Program-made: the position numbers and the translations under genes | The notes under the pieces: model-generated | What the model saw: the letters and a program-made list of their open reading frames with translations, nothing else | Databases searched by the model: none | What the model was told of the DNA's origin: nothing | Shown: positions 2,976 to 32,343 of the stretch, one piece after another | How the letters are laid out: the number at the start of each line of letters is the position of its first letter | How positions within the stretch are numbered: the stretch's first letter is position 1 | NCBI GenBank assembly: GCA_001791645.1 | Contig: MGFA01000014.1 | Span: forward strand, 1-41,367 | Length of the DNA stretch: 41,367 nucleotides | Direction: 5' to 3' | DNA from: Candidatus Uhrbacteria bacterium RIFOXYB12_FULL_58_10 | GTDB taxonomy: Bacteria; Patescibacteriota; Patescibacteriia; UBA9934; GWF2-40-263

Positions 2976-3995
2976 TTAAGTTTCCTGGCCAAGAATAACC
3001 ACGACCACGGCGCGGTCGTCCCTTTTTTTCCGATTTCCGGAGGACGCTTCGGCGGCCTCGGCGATCTGACGGGCGATTTCGCGCGCCGACATCTTCTTGA
3101 GAAGCGATTCTCGAACGATCGTTTCGATTTCTTTTTCCGTAAGGACGTCCGTGATTCCATCGGAACAGATGACAAGCGTATCTCCAGTTCGCGCTTTGAC
3201 GGAGCGCACCGTCGGGCTGGTCGTGGCGCCAGTGTCCATCGAATTCAAGAGGTAGCTGCTCATGTGGTACAGAAGCTGGGTGGCCGTTCGGTTATGACGC
3301 GAACTGAGCCGATTCTCGGTTTCCCGCAGACATCTTTTCAAGGAGGTCAGGTCTCTTGAGAAACGGTTCCACGGGACGATCGCGGCGTTAATTGCCGACT
3401 CAAGCGTTGCACGATCCTTCAGGACGGGGTGTTCCGGGACATCCTCTCCTCGTTTCGTTGATTGGTCGATGGCACGTCCGATGGCTTCCGGAAGAATTCC
3501 AGATGAAACCAAGAGTTCTACGAATCCATCGTCCGTGGTCAGCCGTTCAAGGACGCCGGAATCCTGTCGGATCAGATACCCTCGGCTGTCGCCGACATGC
3601 GCGATCGCGAGCTCGACCGTTCCGTCGGTGGACGCTTCGGCGGCGACGGCGGTGAGCGTGGTACCCATCCCGGCAAATTTTGGATCCGTTTTTTGAGCGT
3701 GCATCGCGTTTGCGCACACGTCAACGGATTCCTGCAATTTTTCTGCCATGCCCCTTTTTTTCGACCGGGCGAACGTGCTGTCGAGCGTGGTGCATGCGAG
3801 GCGGCTCGCCACGTCGCCGTGCGGCATTCCGCCCATGCCGTCTGCCACGGCAAACAGCCCGTGTTCCTGGTCGTCCACGACCGTATCCTCGCACCGAGAC
3901 ATCACTTCCTTTCCGATGAGCGCGGAACCGCTGTCGACAACCAGGACTTTTCGTTCTGTTTCTGGGGAAAAACCATGTTCGGCTGAATGGACCAT
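2976..3995 (-). CDS. PP2C-family protein serine/threonine phosphatase
   Basis: Soluble PPM/PP2C phosphatase of about 339 aa, predicted to dephosphorylate Ser/Thr residues with a bimetal centre. Ordered motifs are visible: a CEDTVVDDQ segment, VADGMGG (metal-binding Asp of motif 2), GTTLTAVA, AHVGDSRGYL, LVICSDGITDVL and the C-terminal RDDRAVVVV. The insert between the GDSR and SDG motifs (about residues 160-260) is longer than in small PrpC-type phosphatases and could hold a regulatory helical segment. I chose the ATG at 3995 rather than the GTG 18 nt upstream because an extended -10 box ends 8 nt before this ATG, implying a leaderless message. No kinase is adjacent; the only kinase in the window is at 31.5-32.3 kb, a possible but unproven partner. 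Confidence 0.9.
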   Translation of the reverse strand: MVHSAEHGFSPETERKVLVVDSGSALIGKEVMSRCEDTVVDDQEHGLFAVADGMGGMPHGDVASRLACTTLDSTFARSKKRGMAEKLQESVDVCANAMHAQKTDPKFAGMGTTLTAVAAEASTDGTVELAIAHVGDSRGYLIRQDSGVLERLTTDDGFVELLVSSGILPEAIGRAIDQSTKRGEDVPEHPVLKDRATLESAINAAIVPWNRFSRDLTSLKRCLRETENRLSSRHNRTATQLLYHMSSYLLNSMDTGATTSPTVRSVKARTGDTLVICSDGITDVLTEKEIETIVRESLLKKMSAREIARQIAEAAEASSGNRKKRDDRAVVVVILGQET

Positions 3996-4003
3996 AGAGC
4001 ATA

Positions 4004-4012
4004 AGTATACCA
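4004..4012 (-). promoter_or_regulatory. Extended -10 promoter for the PP2C gene
   Basis: On the minus strand this reads TGGTATACT: a near-perfect -10 with the TGn extension and no clear -35. It ends 8 nt before the ATG at 3995, so transcription should begin at or next to the start codon. Confidence 0.6.
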
Positions 4013-4021
4013 CTGTCGTCC

Positions 4022-4050
4022 TTGACGATCGTAGGTATTTGTGTTACAAA
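4022..4050 (+). promoter_or_regulatory. Sigma-70-type promoter for the MopE-like gene
   Basis: TTGACG, a 17-nt spacer, then TACAAA. It predicts a start near 4057 and a leader of about 117 nt before the ATG at 4174, unlike the leaderless promoters of neighbouring genes. It is divergent from the PP2C promoter, whose -10 lies 10 nt away. Confidence 0.55.
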
Positions 4051-4078
4051 AACAGCCTTGTTTCATGGTGGTTTTTTG

Positions 4079-4153
4079 TTTTTTACGAAGGTTTTCGTGA
4101 AAAAAGAAAGACCGGCATTCCCACAAGCAAGCGACACCTACGTTCCGGTCTTT
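4079..4153 (+). promoter_or_regulatory. Structured 5' leader of the MopE-like gene (two hairpins)
   Basis: Hairpin 1 (4079-4105) pairs TTTTTTACGAA with TTCGTGAAAAAA around a short loop, with one bulge. Hairpin 2 pairs AAAGACCGG (4107-4115) exactly with CCGGTCTTT (4145-4153), with CCCAC and GTGGG inside and beside the stem. An AGAGG Shine-Dalgarno-like sequence lies 5 nt before the ATG at 4174. The leader is AT-rich and unlike the coding region after it. It matches no riboswitch family I recognise. Confidence 0.4.
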
Positions 4154-4173
4154 CGTGGGTGCAAGAGGCATTG

Positions 4174-6900
4174 ATGTACATTTCACGTGAAATCATCGGT
4201 CTTTCGTTGGCCAGCGTTCTCGCATTCGGATCCGGGTGTGCCAGTGGAAAGGTCGCCCTCGACAAGGGCGGATGCGATACCGGGTCGGGTCTCATCGAGA
4301 TCTGCAACGGTGTCGACGACGACTGCGACGGCCTGGTGGACGCAGCCGACCCCGACGTCGCGGACGTCGAGATCTGGTACACGGACGGCGACTCAGACGG
4401 GTACGTGGACGGCACCTCGCCGTCGGAAAGCGGCGCCCGCGCGATGGCGTTCTGTTCCTGGGATGTCCCCGAGTACGGGGCCTCCCAGACGTTCGGCGAC
4501 TGCGATGACTCCGACCCCGCGGTCAACCCCGATGCCACCGACGTGTGCGACGGCATCGACAACAACTGTGACGCGGTCATCGATGGCGACGGCGTCTGTG
4601 ACGGCACCGACGGCGACGGCGACGGATGGGCCGAGGCCGACGGCGACTGCGACGACGACAACTCCGAGGTCCACCCGGGCGCGACGGAGTCCTGCAACGG
4701 CATGGACGACGACTGCGACGGCACGACCGACGAGGACGGCGCCCGCTGGTACGCCGACATGGACAACGACGGTTATGGTGGCACGGAGCTCGGCTACACG
4801 GGCTGCGCGCAGCCCGACGGCGCGGTCGCCATCAACAGCGACTGCAACGACGGCGACGCGAACGTGCATCCGGATGCAACCGAGGTGTGCGACGGCATCG
4901 ACAACGACTGTGACGAACTGGCGGACGATGACGACCCGGCGGTTGACATCTCCACTGGGGAAGAGTGGTATGCCGACGCCGATTCCGACGGCTATGGAAC
5001 CGATTCCATGACCGAAATGGCCTGCCAGGCTCCCACCGGGTATGTGGGCAACGACAGCGACTGCGACGACGGCGACGCGGCCATCAACCCGGCCGTACGC
5101 GAGGTCTGCGGCGACAGCGTGGACAACGACTGCGACGGCACCACTGACGTGCCGGACACGCTCTACGCCGACGTCGACGGCGATGGCTATGGCGATGACG
5201 CCGACACCACCGCATCCTGCGTGGACGTGGCCGGGTACGTCACCTTGGGCGACGACTGCGACGATCTGGACGCCACGGTCTACCCGGGCGCGAGCGAGAC
5301 GGTCGGCGACGAGGTCGACCAGAACTGCGACGGCGGCGAGACCTGTTTCGCCGACGCCGACGACGACCGCTACGCCGCCGGCTCCGGGGCCACCGTGGCC
5401 TCGGCCGACGCGGACTGCTCCGACCCGGGCGAGGCCTCGGCCTCGGCATCGGGCGGCGACTGCGACGACGCGGACAGCTCGGTCCACCCGGGCGCCACGG
5501 AGATCTGCGACGTGGTCGACAACGACTGCGACGGCACGGTCGACGAAGGGTTCGACGCCGACGTCGACGGGCACTACGCCGCCGCCGAATGTTCCTACGG
5601 CGACGACTGCGACGATCTGGACGCCACGGTCTACCCGGGCGCGAGCGAGACGGTCGGCGACGAGGTCGACCAGAACTGCGATGGCGGCGAGACCTGTTAC
5701 GCCGACGCCGACGACGACCGCTACGCCGCCGGCTCAGGGGCCACCGTGGCCTCGGCCGACGCGGACTGCTCCGACCCGGGCGAGGCCTCGGCCTCGGCAT
5801 CGGGCGGCGACTGCGACGACGCGGACAGCTCGGTCCACCCGGGCGCCACTGAGCAGTGCAATGGCACGGACGACGACTGCGACGGGTCCGTCCCCGCGGA
5901 CGAGACCGACGCCGACGGCGACGGATACGTCGGATGCGAGGGTGACTGCGACGAGTCCGACGCGTCAGTCAGCCCCGCGGGCACGGAGACCTGCGACGGC
6001 GTGGACGAAGACTGCGACGGGTCGATCGACGAGGGATTCACCCTCGTGACCTACTACCCCGACGGCGATGCGGATGCCTACGGCGATTCCGCCGCGGGAA
6101 CCACGGCGTGCGCGCCTCCCTCCGGGTACGTGACGGCCGGCGGCGACTGCGACGACGCGGACGCCTCGCTCAACCTCGACGACGCGGACGGCGACGGGTA
6201 CGACACCTGCGACGACGACTGCGACGACGCGGAGGCAGCCGCCTACCCGGGTGCCCACGAGGTCGCGATCGTCTCCTCGGCGGTCGACGACCTGTGCTCC
6301 GACGGCGTCGACAACGACTGCGACGGCGACCCCGACGCGGCGGACTGGGACTGCCAGGACGACGACGGCGATGGGACCGAGAACGGCGTCGACGTCCTGG
6401 TCGCCTACGATGGCGACACGGACGGCGACGACGACACGCTCTGCGTGATCGCGGTCGGCGAGGCCATGCCCTCGCCCTGGGACGGGTACGACGCGATCGT
6501 GCAGGGCGAGGCCTGGGGTGGTTTCTCCGCCCTGGACTCAGCCTTCACCGTGAGCGTCGAGGCCTACGCTGATTCCGACGGCGACGGCACCGACGAGGTC
6601 CGCGCCTGGTGCGTGGACTTCACAGACCCGACCTACGCCCCGTCGTACACGGCCGCGTGGAGCTGGCGCCTTGTCTCGGCGGTAGCGGAGGACGAATCCT
6701 CCACGGCGCCGAGCACTTGCACGGCCGCGTCGTCCTCGACCACGTGGCAGCGCCTCGATCTCGAGGAGTTCTGTGACGCGACCGGTGACAAATGGTGTCG
6801 CGTCGGATACACGGATGTCGACGGCTGTGGGGACAGCATCTCCTCCGGCCTCGTACGGGTCGACTTCGACGCCACCGCCGACTCGATCGCGCCCCACTAG
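4174..6900 (+). CDS. Secreted MopE-type Cys/Asp-repeat metal-binding protein
   Basis: 908-aa protein starting at an ATG with an AGAGG 5 nt upstream. The N-terminus has a short hydrophobic signal (about residues 8-20) ending in GSGC, a possible but atypical lipobox. From about residue 45 to 725 it is built of alternating units of two kinds: C(D/N)GxD(D/N)(D/N)CDG (about eleven copies) and GDCDDxDxxVxPGAxE. This is the pattern of the putative metal-binding motif family (PF11617, MopE-like), common in Myxococcota and relatives. Dense Asp suggests calcium or other cation binding. The last 180 residues form a separate domain with several Cys (DTLCVIAVGE, RAWCVDFTDP). Composition is extreme (GAC, GGC and GCC codons dominate), unlike its neighbours, which suggests transfer. 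The open frame upstream to 3748 is antisense to PP2C and not coding. Confidence 0.85.
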   Translation: MYISREIIGLSLASVLAFGSGCASGKVALDKGGCDTGSGLIEICNGVDDDCDGLVDAADPDVADVEIWYTDGDSDGYVDGTSPSESGARAMAFCSWDVPEYGASQTFGDCDDSDPAVNPDATDVCDGIDNNCDAVIDGDGVCDGTDGDGDGWAEADGDCDDDNSEVHPGATESCNGMDDDCDGTTDEDGARWYADMDNDGYGGTELGYTGCAQPDGAVAINSDCNDGDANVHPDATEVCDGIDNDCDELADDDDPAVDISTGEEWYADADSDGYGTDSMTEMACQAPTGYVGNDSDCDDGDAAINPAVREVCGDSVDNDCDGTTDVPDTLYADVDGDGYGDDADTTASCVDVAGYVTLGDDCDDLDATVYPGASETVGDEVDQNCDGGETCFADADDDRYAAGSGATVASADADCSDPGEASASASGGDCDDADSSVHPGATEICDVVDNDCDGTVDEGFDADVDGHYAAAECSYGDDCDDLDATVYPGASETVGDEVDQNCDGGETCYADADDDRYAAGSGATVASADADCSDPGEASASASGGDCDDADSSVHPGATEQCNGTDDDCDGSVPADETDADGDGYVGCEGDCDESDASVSPAGTETCDGVDEDCDGSIDEGFTLVTYYPDGDADAYGDSAAGTTACAPPSGYVTAGGDCDDADASLNLDDADGDGYDTCDDDCDDAEAAAYPGAHEVAIVSSAVDDLCSDGVDNDCDGDPDAADWDCQDDDGDGTENGVDVLVAYDGDTDGDDDTLCVIAVGEAMPSPWDGYDAIVQGEAWGGFSALDSAFTVSVEAYADSDGDGTDEVRAWCVDFTDPTYAPSYTAAWSWRLVSAVAEDESSTAPSTCTAASSSTTWQRLDLEEFCDATGDKWCRVGYTDVDGCGDSISSGLVRVDFDATADSIAPH
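5248..5498 (+). repeat. First copy of a 251-bp near-identical direct repeat
   Basis: This segment recurs 351 bp downstream at 5599-5849 with only about three substitutions, encoding nearly the same 83 residues (CFADAD here, CYADAD in copy 2). The 351-bp period is 117 codons, so the frame is kept. It looks like a recent in-frame tandem duplication or gene conversion within the MopE-like gene. Confidence 0.9.
5599..5849 (+). repeat. Second copy of the 251-bp near-identical direct repeat
   Basis: Copy 2 of the segment at 5248-5498. The 100 nt after copy 1 (5499-5598) and the sequence after copy 2 are related but clearly diverged. The identity is therefore confined to this block rather than the whole 351-bp period. 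Confidence 0.9.
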
Positions 6901-6910
6901 GACGCGATCT

Positions 6911-6941
6911 CCGGCAGCCCCCCTGGGCCGCCGGTTTTTTG
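6911..6941 (+). terminator. Rho-independent terminator of the MopE-like gene
   Basis: Stem CCGGC-A-GCCC with GGGC-C-GCCGG (one mismatch, CCCT loop), followed by TTTTTTG. It ends the MopE transcript immediately before the MFS promoter. Confidence 0.8.
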
Positions 6942-17041: not shown

Positions 17042-18874
17042 TTATTTTGTCACGACTCCCTTGCCCGCGGCCTCCTCGTCCTCCGGGAGCTCGGTGGTGA
17101 GTATGTCGATGCCGTTTGAAACCTGATCCTTGGTGAACGTGTCCTTCGCCTCGACGGCGATGGCGTTGGTGAGCTTATAGAACGCGCCGACGTCGCTTTC
17201 TTCCGGAGTCACGGCAACGCCGAAGGTCGCTTCCGCGCCTGGGATCGAAATGGGCAGGGACGGCACGCTCCAGGTGACGATGCGGGTCGTTTCGTCGAAG
17301 GAGACCGTGCCAATCTCAGCCGTTGTTTTTCCGGTCCATGCGACTTTTGGCGGGAGGTTCGTGGTCATGCGAAGTCCTTCGAGCAGGTGAAACGAGTTGG
17401 CCACGCGCCAGACCACGCGGTACGTGGTCGTTTGGCCGACCACTGGGGGCAGGGGACCGGTGCCGATTGCCTCGCCGTCCGCGGTGTAGTACTCGGCATG
17501 CGCCGAGGATTGGAAGTCGGAGTTGACGAGGGCGGTGATCGGCGAGGCGTCGATGGTGCGCGGGCTTTCGATCGCGCCGATTTGGTCGAGCGTGGCGGAA
17601 AGTGAGAAGACGACCGCGTTTGACGTTCCCGCGCGAAGGTCTGAGACGATCGGCAGGGAGAGGTCGATGACCCCGGAATCGCTCGGCGAGAATTCCTTGA
17701 ACGCCGGAACGGCGGTGTCATCCCACGTGAGCGTATTGCCCGAGCGCACGGCTCCTCCGATGTTCGCTCGCGCCCAGTCGATTGGCAGCGTCGCCGCGTC
17801 GCCTGAGAGCACCAGGACGAAGGCGAGTCCGCGTATCGTCTCATTCCCGTTATTCGCATAGTCGATCGACGCGCGAAGCGTATCGCCTGGATCCACGGTT
17901 TGGTCCGAGGATTTTCCGTTCACGACAAGGCCGAACGCCACGTCTCCGCCAACCACGTCGGTGGTTGTCGTCGCTTCTGTTTGCGGAAATTCCATGCGTT
18001 GTTCGTTCACGAACGCGACGCGCGCGCCAACGGACCGCTCTCCTTCCGCCGACGACGTATAACGTCCATTTACGGTGATCGCCTTCAGTTCCCCCGGGGC
18101 AAGCGAATTGAACGTCCATGCGTTCGTTCCCGTTTCGTCCGTGGTGGGCTCCGCGCCAGTGATCGTGAATTCTTCGGGTGCCATGAGGCTGACGAGCACG
18201 TTTGTCGCCTCGTCCGCGCTCGTGTTTTGGACGTTCACCACGTACGCGACTTCGTCGCCTGGCAGCGCCTTCTCGGGGCCGGAGATCGTGGCGTCGAGCA
18301 CGGAGTCCTCAATGTTCACGGAAACGGTCTCAATGCTCTGGAAGTCGGAGGAGAAGTTGCCAGGTCGGTAGGTGAATAGCGTTTGGATCGTCTGCGTGCT
18401 TGGTACTTCGGATCGGAACACACCGCCTATGGTGATCGAACCGTCCGAGCCGCGCGCGAGGGAACCGATGGTCCACGTGAGGGTCGTTTCATCCGTGGGC
18501 GCTGGGTTCGTCGAGGTGAGGACAAAGTCCGCGGGCAGGCTGAGCGTTGCTTCGAGCGATGCGATCGGAGCGTTTCCGCCGTTCTCGTAGCGGAACGTGT
18601 AAAACGCCTCCTGTCCGGACCGAACCCCGTCGGCCGCGTCGGAACTCGTTTCAAGCGGACGGCTCGGTCCGATGCCTCCTCGGCTCCACACGAAAAAACC
18701 GCCCCAGGCAACGACGCTCAGGATCCCGAGCGCGAGGATCGTCCGCACGAGGAATCGGGTCAGGCGCGACCCCTCGCGCGTTTCCAGCCTGGTCATGTCC
18801 GGGATTTCCCCGTCATGCCCCGCGTAAATCGCGCGCAGTTCCTCTTTGATTTGCTCGTTGGTTTTTCGTTTCAT
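17042..18874 (-). CDS. Membrane-anchored protein with DUF11-like extracellular repeats
   Basis: 610 aa: a cytosolic basic N-terminus (about 1-38), one transmembrane helix (about 40-64, FLVRTILALGILSVVAWGGFFVW), then a long extracytoplasmic part. The exterior consists of four or so beta-sandwich repeats with phrases such as YENGGNAPIASLEATLSLP, VQNTSADEATNVLVSL and YANNGNETIRGLAFVL, typical of DUF11/CARDB-like adhesion or surface modules. The last gene of the operon after the DUF4012 protein; its ATG overlaps that stop (ATGA). The role is likely cell-surface architecture; no catalytic residues are evident. Confidence 0.75.
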   Translation of the reverse strand: MKRKTNEQIKEELRAIYAGHDGEIPDMTRLETREGSRLTRFLVRTILALGILSVVAWGGFFVWSRGGIGPSRPLETSSDAADGVRSGQEAFYTFRYENGGNAPIASLEATLSLPADFVLTSTNPAPTDETTLTWTIGSLARGSDGSITIGGVFRSEVPSTQTIQTLFTYRPGNFSSDFQSIETVSVNIEDSVLDATISGPEKALPGDEVAYVVNVQNTSADEATNVLVSLMAPEEFTITGAEPTTDETGTNAWTFNSLAPGELKAITVNGRYTSSAEGERSVGARVAFVNEQRMEFPQTEATTTTDVVGGDVAFGLVVNGKSSDQTVDPGDTLRASIDYANNGNETIRGLAFVLVLSGDAATLPIDWARANIGGAVRSGNTLTWDDTAVPAFKEFSPSDSGVIDLSLPIVSDLRAGTSNAVVFSLSATLDQIGAIESPRTIDASPITALVNSDFQSSAHAEYYTADGEAIGTGPLPPVVGQTTTYRVVWRVANSFHLLEGLRMTTNLPPKVAWTGKTTAEIGTVSFDETTRIVTWSVPSLPISIPGAEATFGVAVTPEESDVGAFYKLTNAIAVEAKDTFTKDQVSNGIDILTTELPEDEEAAGKGVVTK

Positions 18875-21582
18875 AGCTCGCTTTCAAACAAGGCGCCCAC
18901 GAACGCGTCCGCGGCGTTTCCAAAGGTAACGTCCCCGATGTCATGGGAGGACCACAGCGTCGCGAGCGAGTCCGGAACGTTCATGGATACGTGCGTGGTT
19001 CGATCCGTGACGCCGGACTGCTTTTGAATGGTGAGCGAGTATTCCTTGGTCGATGGAAGGCCGAGCGTCCGTTTGGCAAACGCCATGAACGTGTCAGTTT
19101 TCTCGGCCTTGAGCATCAGGGGAAGCCGATACGTGAACGAGTAGGTGGACGTTGTTCCGGGCTTCGTTTGGATCCAGTTTCCAAACACGGTTTTTCCGAA
19201 CTCGTCGTATACCGCGGTTTGCGTTTCGGCGTCCACGTCGAGCGAGTCCATGGGATAGAGCAGGTCGTCGTCGATGATCCAGTCGTCCGGCGCGATCTCG
19301 AACAGCGACGGGTCGGGAATCGTGAAACCGCTCGCGGAGAGCAGGGTGGATCCCTTCGGCACGTAGAGGCGCGCGTAGTTCACGTTGTTGACCCCGCTGA
19401 ACGCGGCGCCGGGTTCCCCGAGGTGCGTGCGCGTGACCGTGACCGTGTTGGTAATGCCGCCTTGGTCGTCCGCGTTTACCACGAGCTCGACGTGCTCGCG
19501 AATAACGCCGTCGGTCTTTCCGCCGCCGAGGTTCGTGTTCACGAGCATCAGGTAGTCGCCGTCGGTTGTCTTGATCTCGCCGCCCCATCCGAGGTCGCGC
19601 ACGGAGCGTTCAAGCTCGTCGTTCGTGAAATAGATTTGCACGTCGCGCGACCGCAAACCGCGGTCTGCGCGGTCGAGTACCGCGAGGAAGTCGTCGGAGT
19701 TGCCGCTCATCACGCGGTCGAGCAAAATCGGTGCGAGGTCGCCAATGAATGCCTTTGGCTTGTTTTCGTCGCGGTCATATTCGAGTTCCACTATCTTTTG
19801 CGTTTCCGAGAGAAAGTTTTCGGAGGTAATGGTGCGCCCGTACTCGGGCATGTCCACCGGACCGAGGAATCCGATCAGGTTTGCGACGTACGTCGCATTG
19901 ACGGCGACCACGCCATCCACGCTTCCGCCGCCCGCGTCCTCGTAGAAGTCCATGATCTGGCGCGCGGTCGTTGGAAAGTCCGGGAACCAGTTGGCATCCT
20001 GGAATTCCCAGCGCGCGCTCAACAGTTGGAGCGGTTCCGGTGCGGCCACGTTGTGACGGAGCGAGCCTTGCAGGTCGTAGGTTCCTCCGCCTGGCACGTT
20101 CATGCCCGTGATCACGCCGTCTTTCACGTCGAGCTCCGCGAACGATCCCATAAAGCCACCGGTCGCGCGGATTTCCGTGTTGTTTTGAAACACGAGCAGA
20201 TAGCGCTTGGATCCGTCCGCCCCGAGCACGGTTTGTGCCATCTCAGAAAAGCCGAGAAACTCGTCGATCGTCGCGACGAGGGTCGGCAGGCGGTCGGCAA
20301 GCTCGGCGAACGTTGCGCGTTGCGCCTCGGGGACGTCATTTGCGTTTACGTCGGCAATGAGCTCGGAGGCACGACGGAGTTCCGGCAGGGCAGAGGAGAC
20401 GTACGCGGTGAGCAGGCGCAGGCGCGACACGGGCGTCGGGTTGAGCTCATCTCGCGCGGCGAGAACGCCTTGCGCGATGCGCTCGCCCGCGGCGGACATG
20501 GACGCGCCGGCCTCGAGGAGCTTGGTCCCGGCACGATAGGTGGCTCCGGTCGCCGGGACGGCCGAGAGGAGCAGGGAGGTGATGGAACCGAGATCCTTCA
20601 CGGATCGCTGCGCGCGGGAAAACGCGTCGCCCGCGCCGCCGAAGGAGTCCGACGCGGCGGCCGCGTCGCGCACCAGCACGGCATCCGCGCCCGCCCTCAG
20701 CTGGGTGAGAGCCGAGGCCGACGCGGTTTCAAGCCCGGATTTCGTTTCCCAAAGTCCGCTCACGAAGTTCATCGCGTGGATCGGAAGCACGAACACGAAG
20801 GACGCGAGCACGAACACCCCGATGGCGCGGTGCCACCCATGCGGAAGAAAGCTGAACGAAAGCCTCTCTGTCGCGGAGTCGCCCAGGCGCCTGGCGAACG
20901 CGTTCCATCGTTCGGTCGCGTTTGGCGCGGCCTCGATCGCGGTTTCCGTGATGGTCATTTCCGAAAACGTGAGGACAACGTCCTTGTCTTCGTCCGCTTC
21001 GGTTTCGACGCGTCCGTCGGCATGATACGTCGGTTCGTCGTCCGGCAATTCAAAGTACGTCGCGAAGTTTTCTGGCACCTGCGGCGGGATGAACGGAGCC
21101 GGGGCAAATTGCGCGCGAATCGCTTCCGGGTGGTCGGTGAACATCTCCTCTTGGCCCATCGGCCCGTTGGTTTCTCGTTTCACGAACCGGATCTCTACAT
21201 CCTCCAAAATTTGCCCGATGGTATCGGTCGGCGAAAGCAGAAGGTCCTCCGCGGGGTTCATGTGTTCCGCGTCGGTGAGCGAAAGAAAAAATCGTTCCGG
21301 CAGGAGCAGGTTTGGCGCGGGAAGTCGTTCCTCGTCAAGCCATTCGCGCGGCACGGGAAGATGCGCGTTCAAATGAATGATGTACGGCGAGAGCGACAGC
21401 GTATCCGCGACGCGAACGACCGGCTTCCCCGGAGCGCGGTTCGCGAAGGCTACGCCATGAAACCGCATTTCGGTCGGGACTGAGTGATCGAAAAGCTGCG
21501 TGATCGCGCGCGCGGCGCGGCGTCGGCGCAGAGCTTCCTTCAACCGGTCCTTATTCAGTTTTGCGGTGAGCGAGACGCTCAT
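18871..21582 (-). CDS. DUF4012 domain protein
   Basis: 903 aa with an unusually long cytosolic N-terminal region (about 1-260), one transmembrane helix (about 263-285, AIGVFVLASFVFVLPIHAM), a helical periplasmic stretch, and from about 440 the DUF4012 domain. Its hallmark is RYLLVFQNNTEIRATGGFMGSF followed by YDLQGSLRHNVAAPEPL and later DRVMSGN. DUF4012 proteins are common in CPR bacteria, usually next to glycosyltransferases, and are suspected to act in surface polymer assembly (LytR-like by some proposals); the activity is unproven. It overlaps the upstream GT4 gene by 32 nt and the downstream DUF11-like gene by 4 nt, so the three are one translationally coupled operon. Confidence 0.88.
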   Translation of the reverse strand: MSVSLTAKLNKDRLKEALRRRRAARAITQLFDHSVPTEMRFHGVAFANRAPGKPVVRVADTLSLSPYIIHLNAHLPVPREWLDEERLPAPNLLLPERFFLSLTDAEHMNPAEDLLLSPTDTIGQILEDVEIRFVKRETNGPMGQEEMFTDHPEAIRAQFAPAPFIPPQVPENFATYFELPDDEPTYHADGRVETEADEDKDVVLTFSEMTITETAIEAAPNATERWNAFARRLGDSATERLSFSFLPHGWHRAIGVFVLASFVFVLPIHAMNFVSGLWETKSGLETASASALTQLRAGADAVLVRDAAAASDSFGGAGDAFSRAQRSVKDLGSITSLLLSAVPATGATYRAGTKLLEAGASMSAAGERIAQGVLAARDELNPTPVSRLRLLTAYVSSALPELRRASELIADVNANDVPEAQRATFAELADRLPTLVATIDEFLGFSEMAQTVLGADGSKRYLLVFQNNTEIRATGGFMGSFAELDVKDGVITGMNVPGGGTYDLQGSLRHNVAAPEPLQLLSARWEFQDANWFPDFPTTARQIMDFYEDAGGGSVDGVVAVNATYVANLIGFLGPVDMPEYGRTITSENFLSETQKIVELEYDRDENKPKAFIGDLAPILLDRVMSGNSDDFLAVLDRADRGLRSRDVQIYFTNDELERSVRDLGWGGEIKTTDGDYLMLVNTNLGGGKTDGVIREHVELVVNADDQGGITNTVTVTRTHLGEPGAAFSGVNNVNYARLYVPKGSTLLSASGFTIPDPSLFEIAPDDWIIDDDLLYPMDSLDVDAETQTAVYDEFGKTVFGNWIQTKPGTTSTYSFTYRLPLMLKAEKTDTFMAFAKRTLGLPSTKEYSLTIQKQSGVTDRTTHVSMNVPDSLATLWSSHDIGDVTFGNAADAFVGALFESEL

Positions 21583-22690
21583 AGATAGCTCTGGTTTGCG
21601 CGGTCATCGCGCTCCAAGAGTAATGTGTCACGCGTTCGCGTCCCTTCGCGATCAGATCGTTTCTCAGGGGCTCGTCAACAAGGGCCCGTTCCATGACCGC
21701 GACCATGTCCTCGATGTCATCCGGGGAAAAGTAGAGCGCCGCGTCGCCGAGAATTTCCGGGAGCGACGTGGCGCGCGCGGCCGCGACCGGAACGCCGGCC
21801 GCCATTGCCTCGAGCGGCGGGAGGCCGAATCCCTCGGAGCGGGAAGGGAACAGGTACAAGGTGGCGTTGCCATACAGCTTCGCGAGATCCGCGTCACTCG
21901 GATTCATGACGAACCGGACGTTTTCGCCTGGAACCTCGGTTTCATCGAGCTCCTTCTTCAGTCGTCTGTAAAAGAGGTCATCCCGTCCGGCGAGCACCAG
22001 ATCGACTTCCGGATGCAGGCGGACGAAGAACGAGAAGGCCTGCAGGAGCAACTCCAGATTTTTGTGCGGATATGCGTTGCCGACGTAGAGAAAATATTTC
22101 TTGCCGCCCTTTTTCTCCCCCGGCTCATTTTTCGAACCTTCGAGTTTCGTCACGCCCTCGTAGACCACGCAAATTTTCTTGGTGGAGACGTTTGGAAAAA
22201 ATCGTTGGAGCGACATCTTGGTATACTCGGACACCGCGACGATGCCTCGTGAGCGATGGACCGCGTTTTGAAGCGACACGCGGTAGCCGAGGCGCTTTAG
22301 CCAGTAGATTGCGGGATGCCGCGTGGTCGCTTTCGCGCTTCGGGGCTGCTCGAGCAGGATCAGGTCGTGGATGGTAACGAGAAACGGGGTGCGCAGAAGG
22401 AGCGGGACGTTCCAGTGCGGAAAGTGAACGAGGTCGAGGCGTTCGCGGTCGATGAGTCGCGGCATGAGGAGCTGTTCTTTCGCCGTGTACCAGTGTGCGT
22501 CCGCGAGGCGCTTTTCGAAGTTCGGCGCGGTCAGCTTGCACGCGTCAAAATTTTCCGGCTTGAGAAATAAAACGTAGCGGTTCTCCCGGTCTTGCGTCTG
22601 CAACTCGGTGACGAGTTGTTCCACGTACCTTCCGAGACCGCCACCCCCCACCGCCGGGCCGTACAACCGTGCGTCTATCCCGATCCTCAT
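21551..22690 (-). CDS. GT4-family glycosyltransferase
   Basis: 379-aa GT-B glycosyltransferase that transfers a sugar from a nucleotide-sugar donor to a surface glycan. The N-terminal Rossmann domain has the Gly-rich acceptor loop GPAVGGGGLGRYVEQL (about 10-25). The C-terminal donor domain has YFLYVGNAYPHKNLELLLQAF and the diagnostic EX7E in RSEGFGLPPLEAMAAGVPV (about 282-300). First gene of the GT4-DUF4012-DUF11 operon, with a -10 box 6 nt before the ATG. Acceptor and sugar unknown. Confidence 0.9.
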   Translation of the reverse strand: MRIGIDARLYGPAVGGGGLGRYVEQLVTELQTQDRENRYVLFLKPENFDACKLTAPNFEKRLADAHWYTAKEQLLMPRLIDRERLDLVHFPHWNVPLLLRTPFLVTIHDLILLEQPRSAKATTRHPAIYWLKRLGYRVSLQNAVHRSRGIVAVSEYTKMSLQRFFPNVSTKKICVVYEGVTKLEGSKNEPGEKKGGKKYFLYVGNAYPHKNLELLLQAFSFFVRLHPEVDLVLAGRDDLFYRRLKKELDETEVPGENVRFVMNPSDADLAKLYGNATLYLFPSRSEGFGLPPLEAMAAGVPVAAARATSLPEILGDAALYFSPDDIEDMVAVMERALVDEPLRNDLIAKGRERVTHYSWSAMTAQTRAIYERLAHRKTE

Positions 22691-22696
22691 GCGCTC

Positions 22697-22705
22697 ATTT
22701 TACCA
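22697..22705 (-). promoter_or_regulatory. Extended -10 promoter of the surface operon
   Basis: TGGTAAAAT on the minus strand ends 6 nt before the ATG at 22690, so the message should be leaderless. No -35 match is clear. Confidence 0.5.
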
Positions 22706-22746
22706 AAAAAACAGCCGATTGTCCCCGGGTTATCCACACGGATCAA

Positions 22747-23856
22747 TCAGAAAATTTTTTCCTGCTCGAAAATGGCGAGCGTCTGCTTGGCGGCCCGGTT
22801 CCATGAGAAACGGACGGCGCGTTCGAGACCCATTCGTTTGAGGCGCTCCTGAAGCATTGGAGCGGACAAAAGTTGTTCAAGCGCGAGCGTGATTTCGTCT
22901 GTGCGAAACGGGTTTACGAGAATGGCCGCGTCGCCCGTGAGCTCGGGAATGGAGGAAGTATGGCTCGAAATGACCGGCAATCCGGAGGCCATGGCCTCGA
23001 GCACCGGGAGCCCGAACCCTTCGTACGCGGATGGCCACGTGAAAACGGTCGCGGCGCGGTAGATGGCCGGAAGGTCCCCGCGCGGGACGTAGCCGAGATG
23101 GTGGGTCCAGGAAGAGGCGGCATGGAGCCTGTTGCGGATCGGCCCGCTTTTCCATCCCCAGCCGCCAACAAGGACGAGACGCAGGTCGTCGCCGGACGCG
23201 CGCCGGTACGCTTCGACCGCGTCAATGAGCGCAACGACGTTTTTGCGCGGCTCCAGCGTGCCGACGAACAGGGCAAATCGTTTGGGCAGTCTGTGCTTTC
23301 CGCGGACGCCGTGGTCCTGTGCCGTGAAGATCGGTGAGAACATGGGGTCAACGCCGTGCGGGACCACATGCACCCGCCCTTCCAAAATTTGAAAATGCCG
23401 GACCACGTCTTCCTTTGTCGCGGTCGATGGCACGATAACGGCCGCTGCGTTCGCGACCAGCCGATCTGGCCGGATTTCGCGATGCCAGAGCCGCATTTTC
23501 CGGGAGAAATACTCCGGGAAGTGAATCCAGGAAAGGTCGTGGAGCGAGAGCGCGTACGGGATGTCGGGGGAGATGGTCGTGTAGTTCAGGTTCGGAAGCC
23601 AGACAAGGTCGGGCCTGGTCGCGGCAAGGCGGTCGATGCGCGGCCATCCTGCCGCGTACGTGGTTAGTTTCAACAGGCGATTCGGCACCGCGAGGTGCGT
23701 CGTCTCGACCGGCGGGCGGCGGAGTCCTGAGGAAAACAGCTCGAAGGAATGGCGCGAGGCAATATCGAAAAGGGCGCGAAGGAGCGCGCTCGTGTACTCC
23801 CCCACGCCCGTTTTGTGTCGATCCGACAAATGTCGGACGTCGACGAGGATCTGCAT
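22747..23856 (-). CDS. GT4-family glycosyltransferase
   Basis: 369-aa GT-B enzyme. [26 protein letters not shown] is the N-terminal acceptor loop region with [25 protein letters not shown] marks the donor domain start (about 196-214), and [20 protein letters not shown] carries the EX7E motif (about 284-303). It resembles mannosyl/rhamnosyl-type GT4 enzymes of O-antigen clusters; specificity is not readable. It follows the next GT4 gene across a 30-nt gap holding a 17-bp inverted repeat. Confidence 0.9.
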
Positions 23857-23867
23857 AGAAAATTTAA

Positions 23868-23907
23868 AGATACAAGAAACAAAAACTAGATTTTGTTTCT
23901 TGTATCT
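23868..23907 (-). repeat. Perfect 17-bp inverted repeat between two glycosyltransferase genes
   Basis: AGATACAAGAAACAAAA (23868-23884) and its exact reverse complement (23891-23907) surround a 6-nt loop containing CTAG. It is AT-rich in a GC-rich region, encodes the last residues (DTRNKI) and stop of the upstream gene, and ends about 11 nt before the downstream ATG. It could form an RNA hairpin that attenuates, stabilises or is processed. It resembles the dispersed KIQDTRYKIQ-type repeats I associate with CPR protein termini (recollection, not checked). Confidence 0.85.
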
Positions 23908-24998
23908 TCTAATTTTTCTTCATACGCTCGTTCCACGAGCTCTTGCATTTCCCGCTTGAACCGTTCGCGTCCGAACCGCTCGGCATGCGCGCGGATGGCC
24001 GTCGGGTCGTACGCGGCATCGTTGAACCGGATCAGATGGTCGGCCAGCTCTTCCCAGGACTGCTCGTCAAACAGTTCGCCCGTGACGCCGTCGATGACCG
24101 TTTCTGTCGCGCCGCCGCGACGATACGCGACGACCGGCCGGCCCGCGGACATGGATTCGACGGCCGTGATGCCGAAGTCTTCCTCGTGCGGGTGGATGAA
24201 CGCCTTGGCGTCCGCGAAAAGCGCGGGCAGGTCCTCGTCGGGAACGCGTCCCAGGAATTCGACGTTGCTGCGCGCCATTTTTTTGAGGTCCTTCATGACC
24301 GGCCCGGTTCCGAAGATCTTGAGCTTGAATCCGGTGCGATTGCACGCCTCGATAACGAGGTCGAACCGCTTGTACGCGACCAGACGTCCGCCCGTGAGGA
24401 AATAGGTTTTGGGCGCGTCGGACACGGAGAAGCGGTGCGTGTCCACCGGCGGGTGCACGACGGCGCTGTCGCGGCCGTAGTATTTTTCAATGCGGTCCTT
24501 TACGGTGCGCGAGTTGGCGACGAACGCGTCCACGCGGTCCGCGGCCTGGCGGTCCCAAACGCGGAGCATCGACAAAAACGGCGGGAGCAGGGATTTCACC
24601 ACGCGCGGGATGCGCAGCTCCTCCACGTAGGACAGCGTGTCCGTCCAAAGGAATCGCGTCGGCGTGTGACAGTAGCAAACGTGCAGGGCGCCCGGCCGCG
24701 TAATTACGCCCTTTGCGAATGCGCTTGTGGAGGACACCACCACGTCGTATTCCGACAGGTCGTAGTGTTCCGTGGCGGTCGGCATGAGCGTGAGATACCA
24801 CTGGAACTTCGACTGGATGAGCGGCGCGCGCTGTAAAAAAGATGTCCGCACGTCCTTCCCCTTGAATTGGGGCAAGCGATCCGGATCAAAGAACAGGGTG
24901 TAGGTCGGCGCCTCGGGCCAGATCTCCTGGAGCACCGAAAGCACCTTTTCCGCCCCGCCATCCTGCTTCAGATAGTCGTGTACGAGCGCGAGTTTCAT
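23886..24998 (-). CDS. GT4-family glycosyltransferase (WbaZ/mannosyltransferase-like)
   Basis: 370-aa GT-B enzyme. MKLALVHDYLKQDGGAEKVLSVL is the characteristic start of a WbaZ/mannosyltransferase-like group. HVCYCHTPTRFLW (about 130-142) is a typical mid-domain motif, and YFLTGGRLVAYKRFDLVIEA opens the donor domain. The EX7E region is degenerate but present: HPHEEDFGITAVESMSAGRPVV. The last six residues lie in the inverted repeat at 23868-23907 and look added. A strong promoter lies just upstream. Predicted to build the surface polysaccharide with the other GT4 enzymes and the sugar transferase at 25.7-27.2 kb. Confidence 0.9.
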   Translation of the reverse strand: MKLALVHDYLKQDGGAEKVLSVLQEIWPEAPTYTLFFDPDRLPQFKGKDVRTSFLQRAPLIQSKFQWYLTLMPTATEHYDLSEYDVVVSSTSAFAKGVITRPGALHVCYCHTPTRFLWTDTLSYVEELRIPRVVKSLLPPFLSMLRVWDRQAADRVDAFVANSRTVKDRIEKYYGRDSAVVHPPVDTHRFSVSDAPKTYFLTGGRLVAYKRFDLVIEACNRTGFKLKIFGTGPVMKDLKKMARSNVEFLGRVPDEDLPALFADAKAFIHPHEEDFGITAVESMSAGRPVVAYRRGGATETVIDGVTGELFDEQSWEELADHLIRFNDAAYDPTAIRAHAERFGRERFKREMQELVERAYEEKLEDTRNKI

Positions 24999-25006
24999 GC
25001 GTCAGC

Positions 25007-25035
25007 ACTCTAGCAAACCTTGACATTTAGGGCAA
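25007..25035 (-). promoter_or_regulatory. Promoter of the GT4 gene at 24998
   Basis: Minus strand TTGCCC, 17-nt spacer, TAGAGT (with TGn extension TGC). It ends 8 nt before the ATG, so the mRNA is predicted leaderless. The -35 overlaps a possible plus-strand promoter at 25020-25048. Confidence 0.7.
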
Positions 25036-25048
25036 AATATGAAAAAAT
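25020..25048 (+). promoter_or_regulatory. Candidate promoter of the 212-aa gene
   Basis: A perfect TTGACA, 17-nt spacer, then AAAAAT (4 of 6). It interlocks with the divergent GT4 promoter. The leader would be about 30 nt and contains a GGAGGG Shine-Dalgarno 5 nt before the ATG at 25084. Confidence 0.45.
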
Positions 25049-25083
25049 CTCGACGCATTTTCCAATAGAAGCGGAGGGTTGTC

Positions 25084-25722
25084 ATGGCACATCATGGCAC
25101 GGATGTTGAAAGGGTCGATCGGATCATGGGCACGATGTTCGTCTCGCTGGCAGAGTACGTCAGGGTCTTCCGAATCGGAACCATCGGCTTTGACGACTTG
25201 GAAGTTCTGGCGACTGTCCCATGGGGAGAAGACACACTGCGCGCGGAGGCAGAACATGGAGGGCTGCTGTACCCACACGTTCGGAAGCACAACATCGGCG
25301 CTTTGTTGAAAAGCGGCGCCGACGGGTCCATCCCCGTTCGTGTTCCTCGGTTTCATTTTGGTTCCTCCGGACTCGAGAATCTGCACAACTGGCCGGGTTG
25401 GTTGCCAACCGGCTGGCGGATCGTCCGGACGCGCGTCGAACTTGGTCTTCCCAACGACATGATCATCCAGGACCGCGTGATACTGCCGACGCATCAGCGC
25501 GCGTGCAGGCTCGAGACCGCCGAGATGGCCGTTCTCATGGCACACCGCGGCGTCCAGGTGCTCGCCGACGGCGCGGCATGGTCCCGTGACCTGGTCCCGT
25601 GCGGATGTCGCGCACTCACCGGGCCTTATCGGAAGGACGGGCTCGACATGCGCTTTGGTCGGGATACGGACGAGCATCGGCTGGGCGGAGGCTTGCTACT
25701 CTCGCGGCTGCCTGAAACGTAA
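25084..25722 (+). CDS. Hypothetical soluble protein (212 aa)
   Basis: Starts at an ATG 5 nt after GGAGGG, one of the few clear Shine-Dalgarno sites here. No signal peptide, membrane segment or recognised domain. Features are a His-rich start (MAHHGTD), an aromatic-rich LENLHNWPGWLPTGW near residue 98, and two Cys (CGCRA) near the end. It is flanked by a divergent promoter and a terminator, so it is monocistronic. Leader with strong SD suggests efficient initiation independent of a partner gene. Function unknown. Confidence 0.7.
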   Translation: MAHHGTDVERVDRIMGTMFVSLAEYVRVFRIGTIGFDDLEVLATVPWGEDTLRAEAEHGGLLYPHVRKHNIGALLKSGADGSIPVRVPRFHFGSSGLENLHNWPGWLPTGWRIVRTRVELGLPNDMIIQDRVILPTHQRACRLETAEMAVLMAHRGVQVLADGAAWSRDLVPCGCRALTGPYRKDGLDMRFGRDTDEHRLGGGLLLSRLPET

Positions 25723-25724
25723 AA

Positions 25725-25750
25725 GCTCGGGACATGCCCGGGCTCTTTTC
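25725..25750 (+). terminator. Bidirectional terminator between convergent genes
   Basis: GCTCGGG/CCCGGGC stem (one G-U) with A- and T-rich flanks. It ends the 212-aa gene on the plus strand and lies at the end of the convergent sugar-transferase gene. Confidence 0.75.
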
Positions 25751-25751
25751 T

Positions 25752-27170
25752 TTAGTACGTCTTTCCCCGAAACGCGACGAGCGGCGTCTTGAGGAGAATC
25801 ACCAGGTCATGCCAGGGGCTCCAGTGCTCGATGTAGTAGGTATCGAGACGAACTTCCTCCTCGAATTCGAGATCCGCACGGCCGCTGATCTGCGTCGGGC
25901 CCGTGATGCCGGGCCTGATGGTGAGAACCTTGCGGTGGTGCGGCTCATACTGCGCGACCTCCTCGGGAAGATGCGGCCGCGGGCCGACCAGGGACATGCG
26001 GCCGAGGAGCACGAGGAACAGCTCCGGGAGCTCGTCCATGTGAAACTTGCGAATGACCTTTCCAACGCGTGTGACGCGCGGGTCGTCCTTCAGCTTGAAC
26101 AGCGGGGAACCGTCGCGAATGTTTCCGTGCTTCTTGATGAACTCCGGATCAAAGCGGAACGCGTGCGCGTTGCGCACCATGGATCGAAACTTGAAGTAAT
26201 GAAACGGCTTTCCGCCCTGTCCCACGCGCAGCGTCTTTTTACCTCCAGGGTCGCGCGAGAACAGGACGCGTCCCGGCTCCTCGACGAAGAGGGCGACGGA
26301 CACCGTGAGCATGATTGGCGACGTAACCACGATGAGCGCGAGTGAGCCTGCCACGTCGAACAGCCGTTTGTAGATCGCGCCCCATCCGTCGAGCGGGGTC
26401 TTTTGCACCTCGATCACCGGGATGCCGGCGAAGGTATGGACGACCGTGCGTCCGATTGCCGCCGAGAACAGGTCCGCGGTGTAGCGAAATCCGATCTGGT
26501 GCGTATCCGTGAAGGAGAGCAGTTCGAGCGCCGCGTCGCGGCTCGCCTCGGGGTCCGCGAGCATGATTTCGTCAACTCCGCCCTTTTCATGCGCGGCAAG
26601 GATTCGTTCCGAAGCGGCGGCATCCAATCGGTCAAACCGTTCAATCACGCAGAATCCGAGGCGCGGGTATGCGGAAAAAAAGTCGAGCAGCGCGCGGGCG
26701 GTCCGGTGGCTTCCGATGACGACCACGTGGCGCGTTCCAATGCCCCAGGAGAGCAGCGTCCTCTGCAGCATGCGGATGGCGAGCCGACCGAGGGAGACGA
26801 ACGCGATGGCAAGCACCCAGGCCGCCACGGCGATGAAACGCGATTCGAACAGGACGCGCGAGAAAAAGAGAATGGCGAACACCGCGGCCATGGACGTGCT
26901 CGCCGCGAGGAATACGCGCGTGAGCTCCGAGGCGATGCGTCGCGGATGGGTCGCGTACAGGCCGGAGAGCGCGAACACGGCGATCCAGACGAGCGCGACC
27001 GGGAGAATGACCGCCGTGTATCGCTCAACGGTCAGATTGAACGCGACCGGACGCCAGGCCGTGAAGAACGGGTGGAAGCGAACGTAGAACGCCGCGATTC
27101 CCGCGGCGACGAGCGCCAGGTAATCGAGCGGAACGAGCGCGAGCGTAAAGGCGAGTTCGGATCGTTTCAT
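25752..27170 (-). CDS. Polyprenyl-phosphate sugar-1-phosphate transferase (WcaJ/WbaP-type)
   Basis: 472-aa bacterial sugar transferase. About four or five N-terminal transmembrane helices (to about residue 130) are followed by a Rossmann-like CoA-binding-type domain (HVVVIGSHRTARALLDFF). The catalytic C-terminal domain begins with KRLFDVAGSLALIVVTSPIMLTV (about 270) and ends with FYKFRSMV-type FHYFKFRSM, KFHMDELPELFLVLLGRMSLVGPRPHLPEE and RPGITGPTQISGR. It starts surface glycan synthesis by moving a sugar phosphate onto undecaprenyl phosphate; the three GT4 enzymes nearby would extend it. Confidence 0.93.
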   Translation of the reverse strand: MKRSELAFTLALVPLDYLALVAAGIAAFYVRFHPFFTAWRPVAFNLTVERYTAVILPVALVWIAVFALSGLYATHPRRIASELTRVFLAASTSMAAVFAILFFSRVLFESRFIAVAAWVLAIAFVSLGRLAIRMLQRTLLSWGIGTRHVVVIGSHRTARALLDFFSAYPRLGFCVIERFDRLDAAASERILAAHEKGGVDEIMLADPEASRDAALELLSFTDTHQIGFRYTADLFSAAIGRTVVHTFAGIPVIEVQKTPLDGWGAIYKRLFDVAGSLALIVVTSPIMLTVSVALFVEEPGRVLFSRDPGGKKTLRVGQGGKPFHYFKFRSMVRNAHAFRFDPEFIKKHGNIRDGSPLFKLKDDPRVTRVGKVIRKFHMDELPELFLVLLGRMSLVGPRPHLPEEVAQYEPHHRKVLTIRPGITGPTQISGRADLEFEEEVRLDTYYIEHWSPWHDLVILLKTPLVAFRGKTY

Positions 27171-30517: not shown

Positions 30518-31555
30518 TCAGTCGTTCTTTTTTGCGGGGAGAAGCGGCCGTGTGCCGAGGCCGGCGATGGCCTTCGGCGCCAGCGGTCCGCGCGTTCCGA
30601 CGGCCGCGACGGAATCCATCACGGTCTTGACGTTCTGTCCCGCGTATCGAGAGCCGGCCTGCCGGGATCGCATGTTGGTCGTGAACCGGTCGATCTGCCC
30701 GGTGTGCTTCGCGAGCGTGGCAAGCAGCACGTCAACGACCCGGCGGTGATCGTTGAGCGGGACGATGCGGTCATTCCCGATGAGCGATTCCCACCAGGCG
30801 AGGATCGGCCCGGGGGAGTAGGAGCCGGTCTCGCACAGCACGGCCCACAGGTTCATGCGGCGGAGCAGCTGCCGCGCGAGATCCTTGGTCGCGCGTGTCT
30901 CTCCTTCCACGGGCCTTCCGAACACGGCGCGGACCTGCGTTTCGTTGAGAGCGTCGCGCCCGGCTTCGTCCGTGATGAAGAAGGCGTGCACGTTGACCGC
31001 GCTTGAGGTGTCCACGTCGCGCACGAGCTTGTACAGCACGAGCTCGTGCGACTCGCATCCGTCGCGCTCCGTGCCGCCTCCTCCGATGCGGAACGCCCCG
31101 AGCATCGGGTCGAGCTCGGGTCCGCGTCCGAAGCGGGCGACCTGGAGAGGGTATTCGTCGCCTGCCGCGTCGGCATGCGCGATGAACAGGATTTCGAGAT
31201 CGTCGCTGTCGAGGTAGGCGCACGCCTCGTGGTAGAGGAGCGGCAACCGCTTGAAGATCTCCCCGGGCCAGGCGTGCATGGAGCCGGTGACGTCCATGAC
31301 CACGATCATCACGTTCGATGCCGTGCTCCTCATGCTTCCGCCTGCGCCGGGAACCGGCATCCCGACCGCGGCCGCCGACGGCAGCTTGCGCGTGGGCGGA
31401 GGGGTCGGGTCGATGACGCGCGCGCGAACCGACGCGGCGGGTTTCGACGCCGCCGGGGGTTCGTATGCGCGCACGGCCCTGCGGAACGGGTCGTCCGGAA
31501 GCCGGATGCTTTCCTTGACCGTATCGTTACGATGCCAGCCGAATCCTCCACTCAT
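30518..31555 (-). CDS. von Willebrand factor A domain protein
   Basis: 345-aa soluble protein. A disordered Pro/Ala-rich N-terminus (about 20-75) leads into a VWA domain starting NVMIVVMDVTGSMHAWPGEIFKRL. The MIDAS metal motif reads D-V-T-G-S (DxTGS instead of DxSGS), with VHAFFITDEAGRD as the later Asp-containing strand. The C-terminus is basic and low-complexity (KNVKT, then PLAPKAIAGLGTRPLLPAKK). VWA proteins often scaffold kinases and ATPases. Its ATG overlaps the kinase stop in an ATGA, so the two are translationally coupled. Confidence 0.85.
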   Translation of the reverse strand: MSGGFGWHRNDTVKESIRLPDDPFRRAVRAYEPPAASKPAASVRARVIDPTPPPTRKLPSAAAVGMPVPGAGGSMRSTASNVMIVVMDVTGSMHAWPGEIFKRLPLLYHEACAYLDSDDLEILFIAHADAAGDEYPLQVARFGRGPELDPMLGAFRIGGGGTERDGCESHELVLYKLVRDVDTSSAVNVHAFFITDEAGRDALNETQVRAVFGRPVEGETRATKDLARQLLRRMNLWAVLCETGSYSPGPILAWWESLIGNDRIVPLNDHRRVVDVLLATLAKHTGQIDRFTTNMRSRQAGSRYAGQNVKTVMDSVAAVGTRGPLAPKAIAGLGTRPLLPAKKND

Positions 31556-32343
31556 GGTTTCCTCCCGGTGCGAAGCGCGAAGGCTTCGCGTGTTGATGTC
31601 CGGCCGAAGGCGGCCAGACGAAGGGTTGTGATCTCATGGTTGAGCCCGCGCGCATCCTGCGGACGGGCGAGCGGGTCGTGCCGAAGCATGCGGCGGATCA
31701 TCGCGGCGAGCTCCGGATTCATGTCCGGCGGGGTGGCGCGGCTGTGCAGGTTTCCGCCGGCCATCGCGAGCGCGGTCGCGCCGAGCGCGTAGATATCGGA
31801 CGCCGGAATGGGAGGCTTCCCTTCAACGAGTTCCGGCGCGACGAAAAGCGGCGTTCCTCCCTTGGCCTTGGTGAGCGCGTCCGGGCGTCCCACGAACAGG
31901 CCGAAGTCCACGAGTACCGCGTCGTGATGCTCGATGTCGAGGATCACGTTCGCGGGCTTTACGTCGCCGTGCACGACCCCGTGGTAGTGCAGGTACGACA
32001 GCGCGTCGAGCAGCCGCTGGAGGATCCAGCACATGTGTTCGTCCGCGACGTGCCCGCGCCGTTCGATGACGGACTGGAGCTCTTCGCCGGCGATGAAGGA
32101 CATCACCATGATCTGCCCGGCGTCCGGGAGCTCCATGTAGTCCTTGAGCGTCGGGAGCGACGAGTGCCTGATGTCCCAGAGCAGCCTTGCTTCCTCGCGG
32201 AACAGGCGCATGAATTCCGGGTCGCCGGTCTTTTCCTGCTTCACGCAGACCGGCACGCCGAGCGTCGCGTGTTCCGCGTAGAAGGTGCGTCCGAACGACC
32301 CTTCCGAGATCTGACGGATGACCCGATATGGTCCGAGCCTCAT
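31552..32343 (-). CDS. Cytosolic Ser/Thr protein kinase (Hanks-type)
   Basis: 263 aa, a bare kinase domain with no transmembrane or PASTA part. Visible: Gly loop ISEGSFGRTFYA (about 10-21), catalytic Lys in VCVKQEK (about 32), catalytic loop HGDVKPANV (HGD replaces HRD, but Asp and Asn are kept), DFG, activation/P+1 region GTPLFVAPELVEGK, and DIYALGAT. All catalytic residues are in place, so it should be active; HGD in place of HRD suggests less dependence on activation-loop phosphorylation. The start is the ATG at 32343, which overlaps the upstream stop (ATGA). A longer upstream frame is antisense noise. Confidence 0.92.
   Translation of the reverse strand: MRLGPYRVIRQISEGSFGRTFYAEHATLGVPVCVKQEKTGDPEFMRLFREEARLLWDIRHSSLPTLKDYMELPDAGQIMVMSFIAGEELQSVIERRGHVADEHMCWILQRLLDALSYLHYHGVVHGDVKPANVILDIEHHDAVLVDFGLFVGRPDALTKAKGGTPLFVAPELVEGKPPIPASDIYALGATALAMAGGNLHSRATPPDMNPELAAMIRRMLRHDPLARPQDARGLNHEITTLRLAAFGRTSTREAFALRTGRKP

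Follow-up and report, generated by a model that had tools for sequence, protein, structure and literature searches.

The window analyzed here, 41,367 nucleotides long, is the first 41 kb of the 58-kb contig C14 of Candidatus Uhrbacteria bacterium RIFOXYB12_FULL_58_10. The genome (1.12 Mb, 28 contigs, rated 100% complete) resembles those of the CPR, as had been predicted, because it is small and because it lacks ribosomal protein uL30, which was missing from all 21 genomes of the group and found in 13 of 14 controls. A gene for a protein built of MopE repeats lies 4 kb into the contig, with a PP2C gene on one side and an MFS gene on the other (Table 1). Read mechanically, its frame begins at 3748 and overlaps the divergent PP2C gene. 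The ATG at 4174 is the best candidate start because AGAGG precedes it and a lipoprotein-type signal follows. The gene is a real open reading frame, in agreement with the original prediction, and its product matches PF11617 ("Cu-binding_MopE") and no other Pfam family, scoring 286 bits against a curated cut-off of 27. Asp makes up 22% of the protein, Cys 5.8%, and Lys only 0.3%. A search of a phage collection gave no match.

A local hidden Markov model (HMM) of the repeat unit recognized nine full units and one partial N-terminal unit, starting at 4285 (partial), 4495, 4642, 4837, 5056, 5251, 5455, 5602, 5806, and 5941. Since degenerate units follow these, the earlier count of eleven is fair. 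The literal string C-x-G-x-D-x-x-C matches only seven units of the protein, and a strict regular expression for the repeat found only 5 open reading frames; the HMM was used in its place. Two nearly identical segments within the array point to a recent internal tandem duplication. No homologue of the C-terminal region was found in 59 relatives, and a single-sequence AF2 fold of this region was discarded (pLDDT 36).

Table 1. Features of the MopE-repeat gene and its flanks in the window, with a secreted protein of the Wzz-Wzy loci
Feature	Position	Strand	Basis
Region with hairpins, 160 bp, between divergent PP2C (-) and MopE (+) genes	4014..4173	.	RNA fold z -2.8
Shine-Dalgarno-like AGAGG, 5 nt ahead of ATG 4174	4164..4168	+	read directly
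MopE-repeat gene, predicted lipoprotein, 908 aa	4174..6900	+	PF11617 E 4.5e-87, ten stretches
Lipoprotein-type signal MYISREIIGLSLASVLAFGSG^C; predicted lipidated Cys22, codon 4237-4239	4174..4239	+	lipobox rule; Lgt and LspA in genome
Main repeat array	4285..6033	+	HMM of unit
Recent internal tandem duplication, copy 1	5248..5498	+	251 nt, 98.8% identical to 5599-5849
Recent internal tandem duplication, copy 2	5599..5849	+	251 nt, 98.8% identical to 5248-5498
Degenerate repeat units, end of array	6142..6375	+	
C-terminal region, 174 aa	6376..6897	+	single-sequence AF2 model uninformative
Intrinsic terminator, hairpin 6911-6934 then T6	6911..6940	+	-20.2 kcal/mol, z -2.3
Secreted barrel-like protein	L055:6303-7925; L102:2005-3462; L087:11516-13027; L075:1852-3339		

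The gene has a clear intrinsic terminator of its own, as had been proposed; a consensus scan for terminators missed its hairpin. The region ahead of the gene folds better than shuffled sequences, a single-sequence result without comparative support, and it holds a T-rich/A-rich hairpin and an inverted repeat, GAAAGACCGG/CCGGTCTTTC. The adjoining PP2C phosphatase (2976-4013, minus strand) had no relative at an E value of 1e-15 in 12 kin; a Ser/Thr kinase is encoded elsewhere in the window (31552-33267). Relatives of the adjacent MFS gene (39-46% identity) occur within the same family and order, but none was found in the same genus; these relatives make a chimeric join at this point unlikely. 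With neighbors of this kind, the exact site cannot be compared with that of kin.

The product carries what identifies a bacterial lipoprotein, namely, a signal with a lipobox Cys in a genome that encodes both Lgt and LspA. When a fixed lipobox rule was applied to MopE open reading frames of the fetched loci that had two or more units and a 5' end, 83 of 100 contained a lipobox, compared to 11 of 254 other open reading frames and 1.75 expected from shuffles; several of those that the rule missed show a lipobox by eye. Lgt was present in 21 of 21 genomes and LspA in 19. The lipobox of the window protein, FGSGC, has an atypical Gly at position -3, and lipidation, likely as it is, is therefore less certain for this copy than for the family. 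We predict that the protein is a surface lipoprotein, which bears out the earlier proposal of a secreted cell-surface protein and refines it to one anchored in the membrane.

The cysteines follow a pattern that predicts how they pair. The number of Cys residues after the lipid Cys is even in 71 of 78 proteins (binomial P = 2e-14), and the window protein has 52. Across 690 units, the Cys of the DC motif is conserved in 99%, that of NDC in about 100%, and that of E-x-C in 83%. When E-x-C is present, the downstream linker almost always contains an odd number of Cys residues (259/260), and when it is absent, the number is usually even (24/30). The P value of this association, 2e-28, overstates independence, as units within a protein are related, but the units lacking E-x-C come from 21 of 62 proteins. 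The upstream linker showed no such association (P = 0.49), so a disulfide joining it to E-x-C was rejected. The simplest map would thus pair DC with NDC inside the unit and E-x-C with the next linker. Covariation of the cysteines thus predicts the disulfides of a repeat whose structure has not been solved. Of 21 genomes, 18 encode the disulfide-forming enzyme VKOR, the present one among them.

An AF2 model of three units (70-row alignment) reached a pLDDT of 89.5 and a pTM of 0.67, with little regular secondary structure. Foldseek found nothing in the PDB at an E value of ≤0.001 with the repeat model, loop-rich folds being hard for this method. Because the model resembles no solved fold, it is the motif that points to calcium binding and a rod-like shape: the DxDxDG loops suggest that the carboxylates of the unit most likely bind Ca2+. 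Asp loops of the DxDxDG type combined with disulfides, as in the MopE unit, also occur in calcium-binding stalk repeats such as thrombospondin type 3 and dockerin; in Pfam and the PDB, MopE repeats matched neither of them significantly. MopE and CorA of Methylomicrobium album are both surface-associated, and both structures hold a Ca2+ site. The Ca2+ sites reported for MopE* and CorA (PMC3912023) are in the domain that these proteins share and so are no evidence for calcium binding by the unit.

The PF11617 repeat is close to universal in this CPR order, where 56 of 60 genomes carry it, compared to 9 of 20 genomes in the remainder of the class and 17 of 265 in the remainder of the phylum (counts tallied from the table of the phylum sample). 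Further MopE genes lie on contigs C5 and C28 of the same genome, which, with the window copy, makes three contigs. The statement that the gene has no homologue nearby thus holds within the window but not for the genome. A search of genome contigs, from which near relatives may have been left out, gave matches only in MAGs whose titles name Myxococcota, Deltaproteobacteria, other Proteobacteria, or Bacteroidota. The best named outside relatives come from Myxococcota/Deltaproteobacteria MAGs (34-44% identity), and these proteins, like that of the window, carry the unit in tandem arrays. They were compared by sequence only, whereas the MopE genes of the CPR order sit in a conserved locus. A literature search of partial coverage gave no paper joining MopE with Patescibacteria or Myxococcota and none on this family in CPR; where PF11617 was mentioned, it was in methods only.

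The conserved locus has the order membrane protein, trypsin-like/PDZ protease, Wzz-like protein, in some cases a secreted barrel-like protein, MopE, Wzy_C-like protein, and GT4 glycosyltransferase. This order is fixed in most genomes, with one to four MopE lipoproteins before the Wzy_C-like ligase/polymerase. A relative of Wzy (a Wzy-like O-antigen ligase/polymerase) was found in 46 of 60 genomes, and among the 40 of these whose upstream DNA could be judged, MopE lies directly upstream of Wzy in 37, at a median gap of 70 nt. One of the three exceptions (G048) has lost the slot, and the other two (G016 and G053) have other small lipoproteins in it (L130:1665-3974 and L143:1645-5179), suggesting that the position before Wzy is a general lipoprotein slot. 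In the genome studied here, the locus is on C5 (L055, G000:C5:1-20000). Pfam names its Wzz and Wzy at scores under the curated cut-offs (25.0 versus 25.5 for Wzz and 27.7 versus 31.7 for Wzy_C), so these assignments are likely but remote. The window gene lies apart from this locus as a satellite copy, and its link to polysaccharide is therefore through the family only. With its Wzz-like and Wzy_C-like proteins and GT4 glycosyltransferases, the locus resembles Wzx/Wzy-dependent polysaccharide loci, from which it differs by the one to four MopE genes, and often the barrel-like protein, between Wzz and Wzy.

The secreted protein encoded between the Wzz and MopE genes is about 480-540 aa long and was found by HMM in 11 genomes. 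It has one MopE unit near its start and a coiled-coil-like middle, and its C-terminal end looks, by eye, like an outer-membrane beta-barrel, which is odd for CPR.

The account that we favor, and consider reasonably probable, is that the window gene encodes a satellite member of a family of surface lipoproteins with MopE repeats that extends across the order, its product being a disulfide-knit stalk stiffened by Ca2+ and linked to polysaccharide. The protein would be exported, lipidated on Cys22 by Lgt, and then processed by LspA, so that its lipid anchor would sit in the cytoplasmic membrane and the repeat array would point outward. Every unit, DxDxDGYG...C-x-x-P-x-GYV...DCDD...E-x-C-D-G-x-D-N-D-C-D-G, would be closed by the one invariant disulfide (DC-NDC), and a second, from E-x-C to a linker Cys, would tie it to the next unit. 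Ca2+, most likely bound by the carboxylates, would make the stalk stiff and protease resistant. Its length may vary by gain and loss of units, of which family members have 2 to 33. Since the genes of most members lie between those for Wzz and Wzy, in a polysaccharide locus that the family shares, the stalks most likely organize or hold surface polysaccharide, or pierce the coat and project binding domains through it; the window copy inherits this argument. Sequence statistics establish the lipoprotein signal, the pattern of disulfides, the spread across the order, and the locus, whereas the Ca2+, the rod-like shape, the binding of polysaccharide, and contact with a host are inferred.

The original prediction held that the gene was acquired horizontally, and the recent import from Myxococcota of a secreted protein with its foreign codon use would account for a GC content (0.69) and GC3 (0.89) that exceed those of its neighbors, for outside relatives in Myxococcota/Deltaproteobacteria MAGs, and for a PP2C neighbor without relatives in kin. 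We regard a recent import as very unlikely. The family is nearly ubiquitous in the order and occupies three contigs of this genome, and the C5 and C28 genes share the codon profile of the window gene, with GAC and GGC use about the same or higher. The use of GAC (0.89 of Asp codons) and GGC (0.66 of Gly codons), described earlier as extreme, is indeed high, but twelve other genes in the window range from 0.64 to 0.89 for GAC and from 0.28 to 0.78 for GGC. Moreover, the GC3 of MopE genes follows the GC content of host flanking DNA across the order (Spearman rho = 0.65, P = 1e-9, 70 arrays). Abundant Asp, Gly, Ala, and Cys residues largely account for the high GC content of the arrays; where the flanking DNA of one host has 36% GC, its MopE array still has 60%. 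CPR homologues with similar codon use, the finding named beforehand as one that would speak against acquisition, are in substance what was observed. The prediction thus stands with respect to the MopE repeats, the CPR genome, and surface secretion but not recent horizontal acquisition. Given the copies in the same genome, their shared codon profile, the presence across the order, and the tracking of host GC, we take the gene, on sequence evidence, to be a native member of the family and not a recent lone import. An ancient transfer of the unit into the lineage is possible, because the unit is common to the Myxococcota/Deltaproteobacteria MAGs.

The name of the Pfam family invites the reading that the protein acquires copper as MopE and CorA of methanotrophs do, and MopE* of Methylococcus capsulatus (PDB 2VOV), which contains the PF11617 unit, is the sole sequence relative in the PDB. 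The match of the window protein covers residues 3-49 of its chain (E = 5e-4) and that of the family profile residues 14-43, and neither aligns beyond residue 49. The Cu(I) site of MopE* is formed by Trp130 (kynurenine), His132, and His203, and the 46 residues at its N terminus cannot be seen in the crystal (PMC3423442). CorA, which binds copper, resembles only the MopE* domain (PMC3912023). The window protein has no counterpart of that domain or its three residues and only 7 His in 908 aa; what it has instead is a ten-unit array and a predicted lipid anchor, unlike MopE*, in which the unit lies in the disordered N terminus. Copper binding should not be inferred from repeats that match this N terminus and not the copper site, and we consider a role in copper acquisition most improbable; the name "Cu-binding" should not be transferred to repeat-only proteins. 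A further alternative is an adhesin for attachment or host contact, in which the variable C-terminal region binds and the array is merely its stalk. A C-terminal region unique to this genome, repeat numbers that differ between proteins, the recent internal duplication, and satellite copies outside the polysaccharide locus would all suit this. However, that region has neither a fold nor a homologue, no host is known, and the idea overlaps with the polysaccharide-linked stalk, from which it differs in what the protein binds. As a separate explanation, we think it rather unlikely.

Extending the polysaccharide-linked stalk to the whole order, we tentatively raise the possibility of a dedicated surface system. 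MopE stalks anchored by lipid, knit by disulfides, and loaded with Ca2+ would be made together with a Wzy-polymerized polysaccharide and would hold it to, or measure it from, a cell without an outer membrane, probably for host contact. How CPR bacteria build their surfaces and attach to hosts is poorly known, and a lipoprotein family within a polysaccharide locus offers a testable set of genes. The window itself contains, by its domain content, a second polysaccharide-type cluster (17042-27170, minus strand), with DUF11 and DUF4012 proteins, three GT4 glycosyltransferases, and a bacterial sugar transferase (PF02397).
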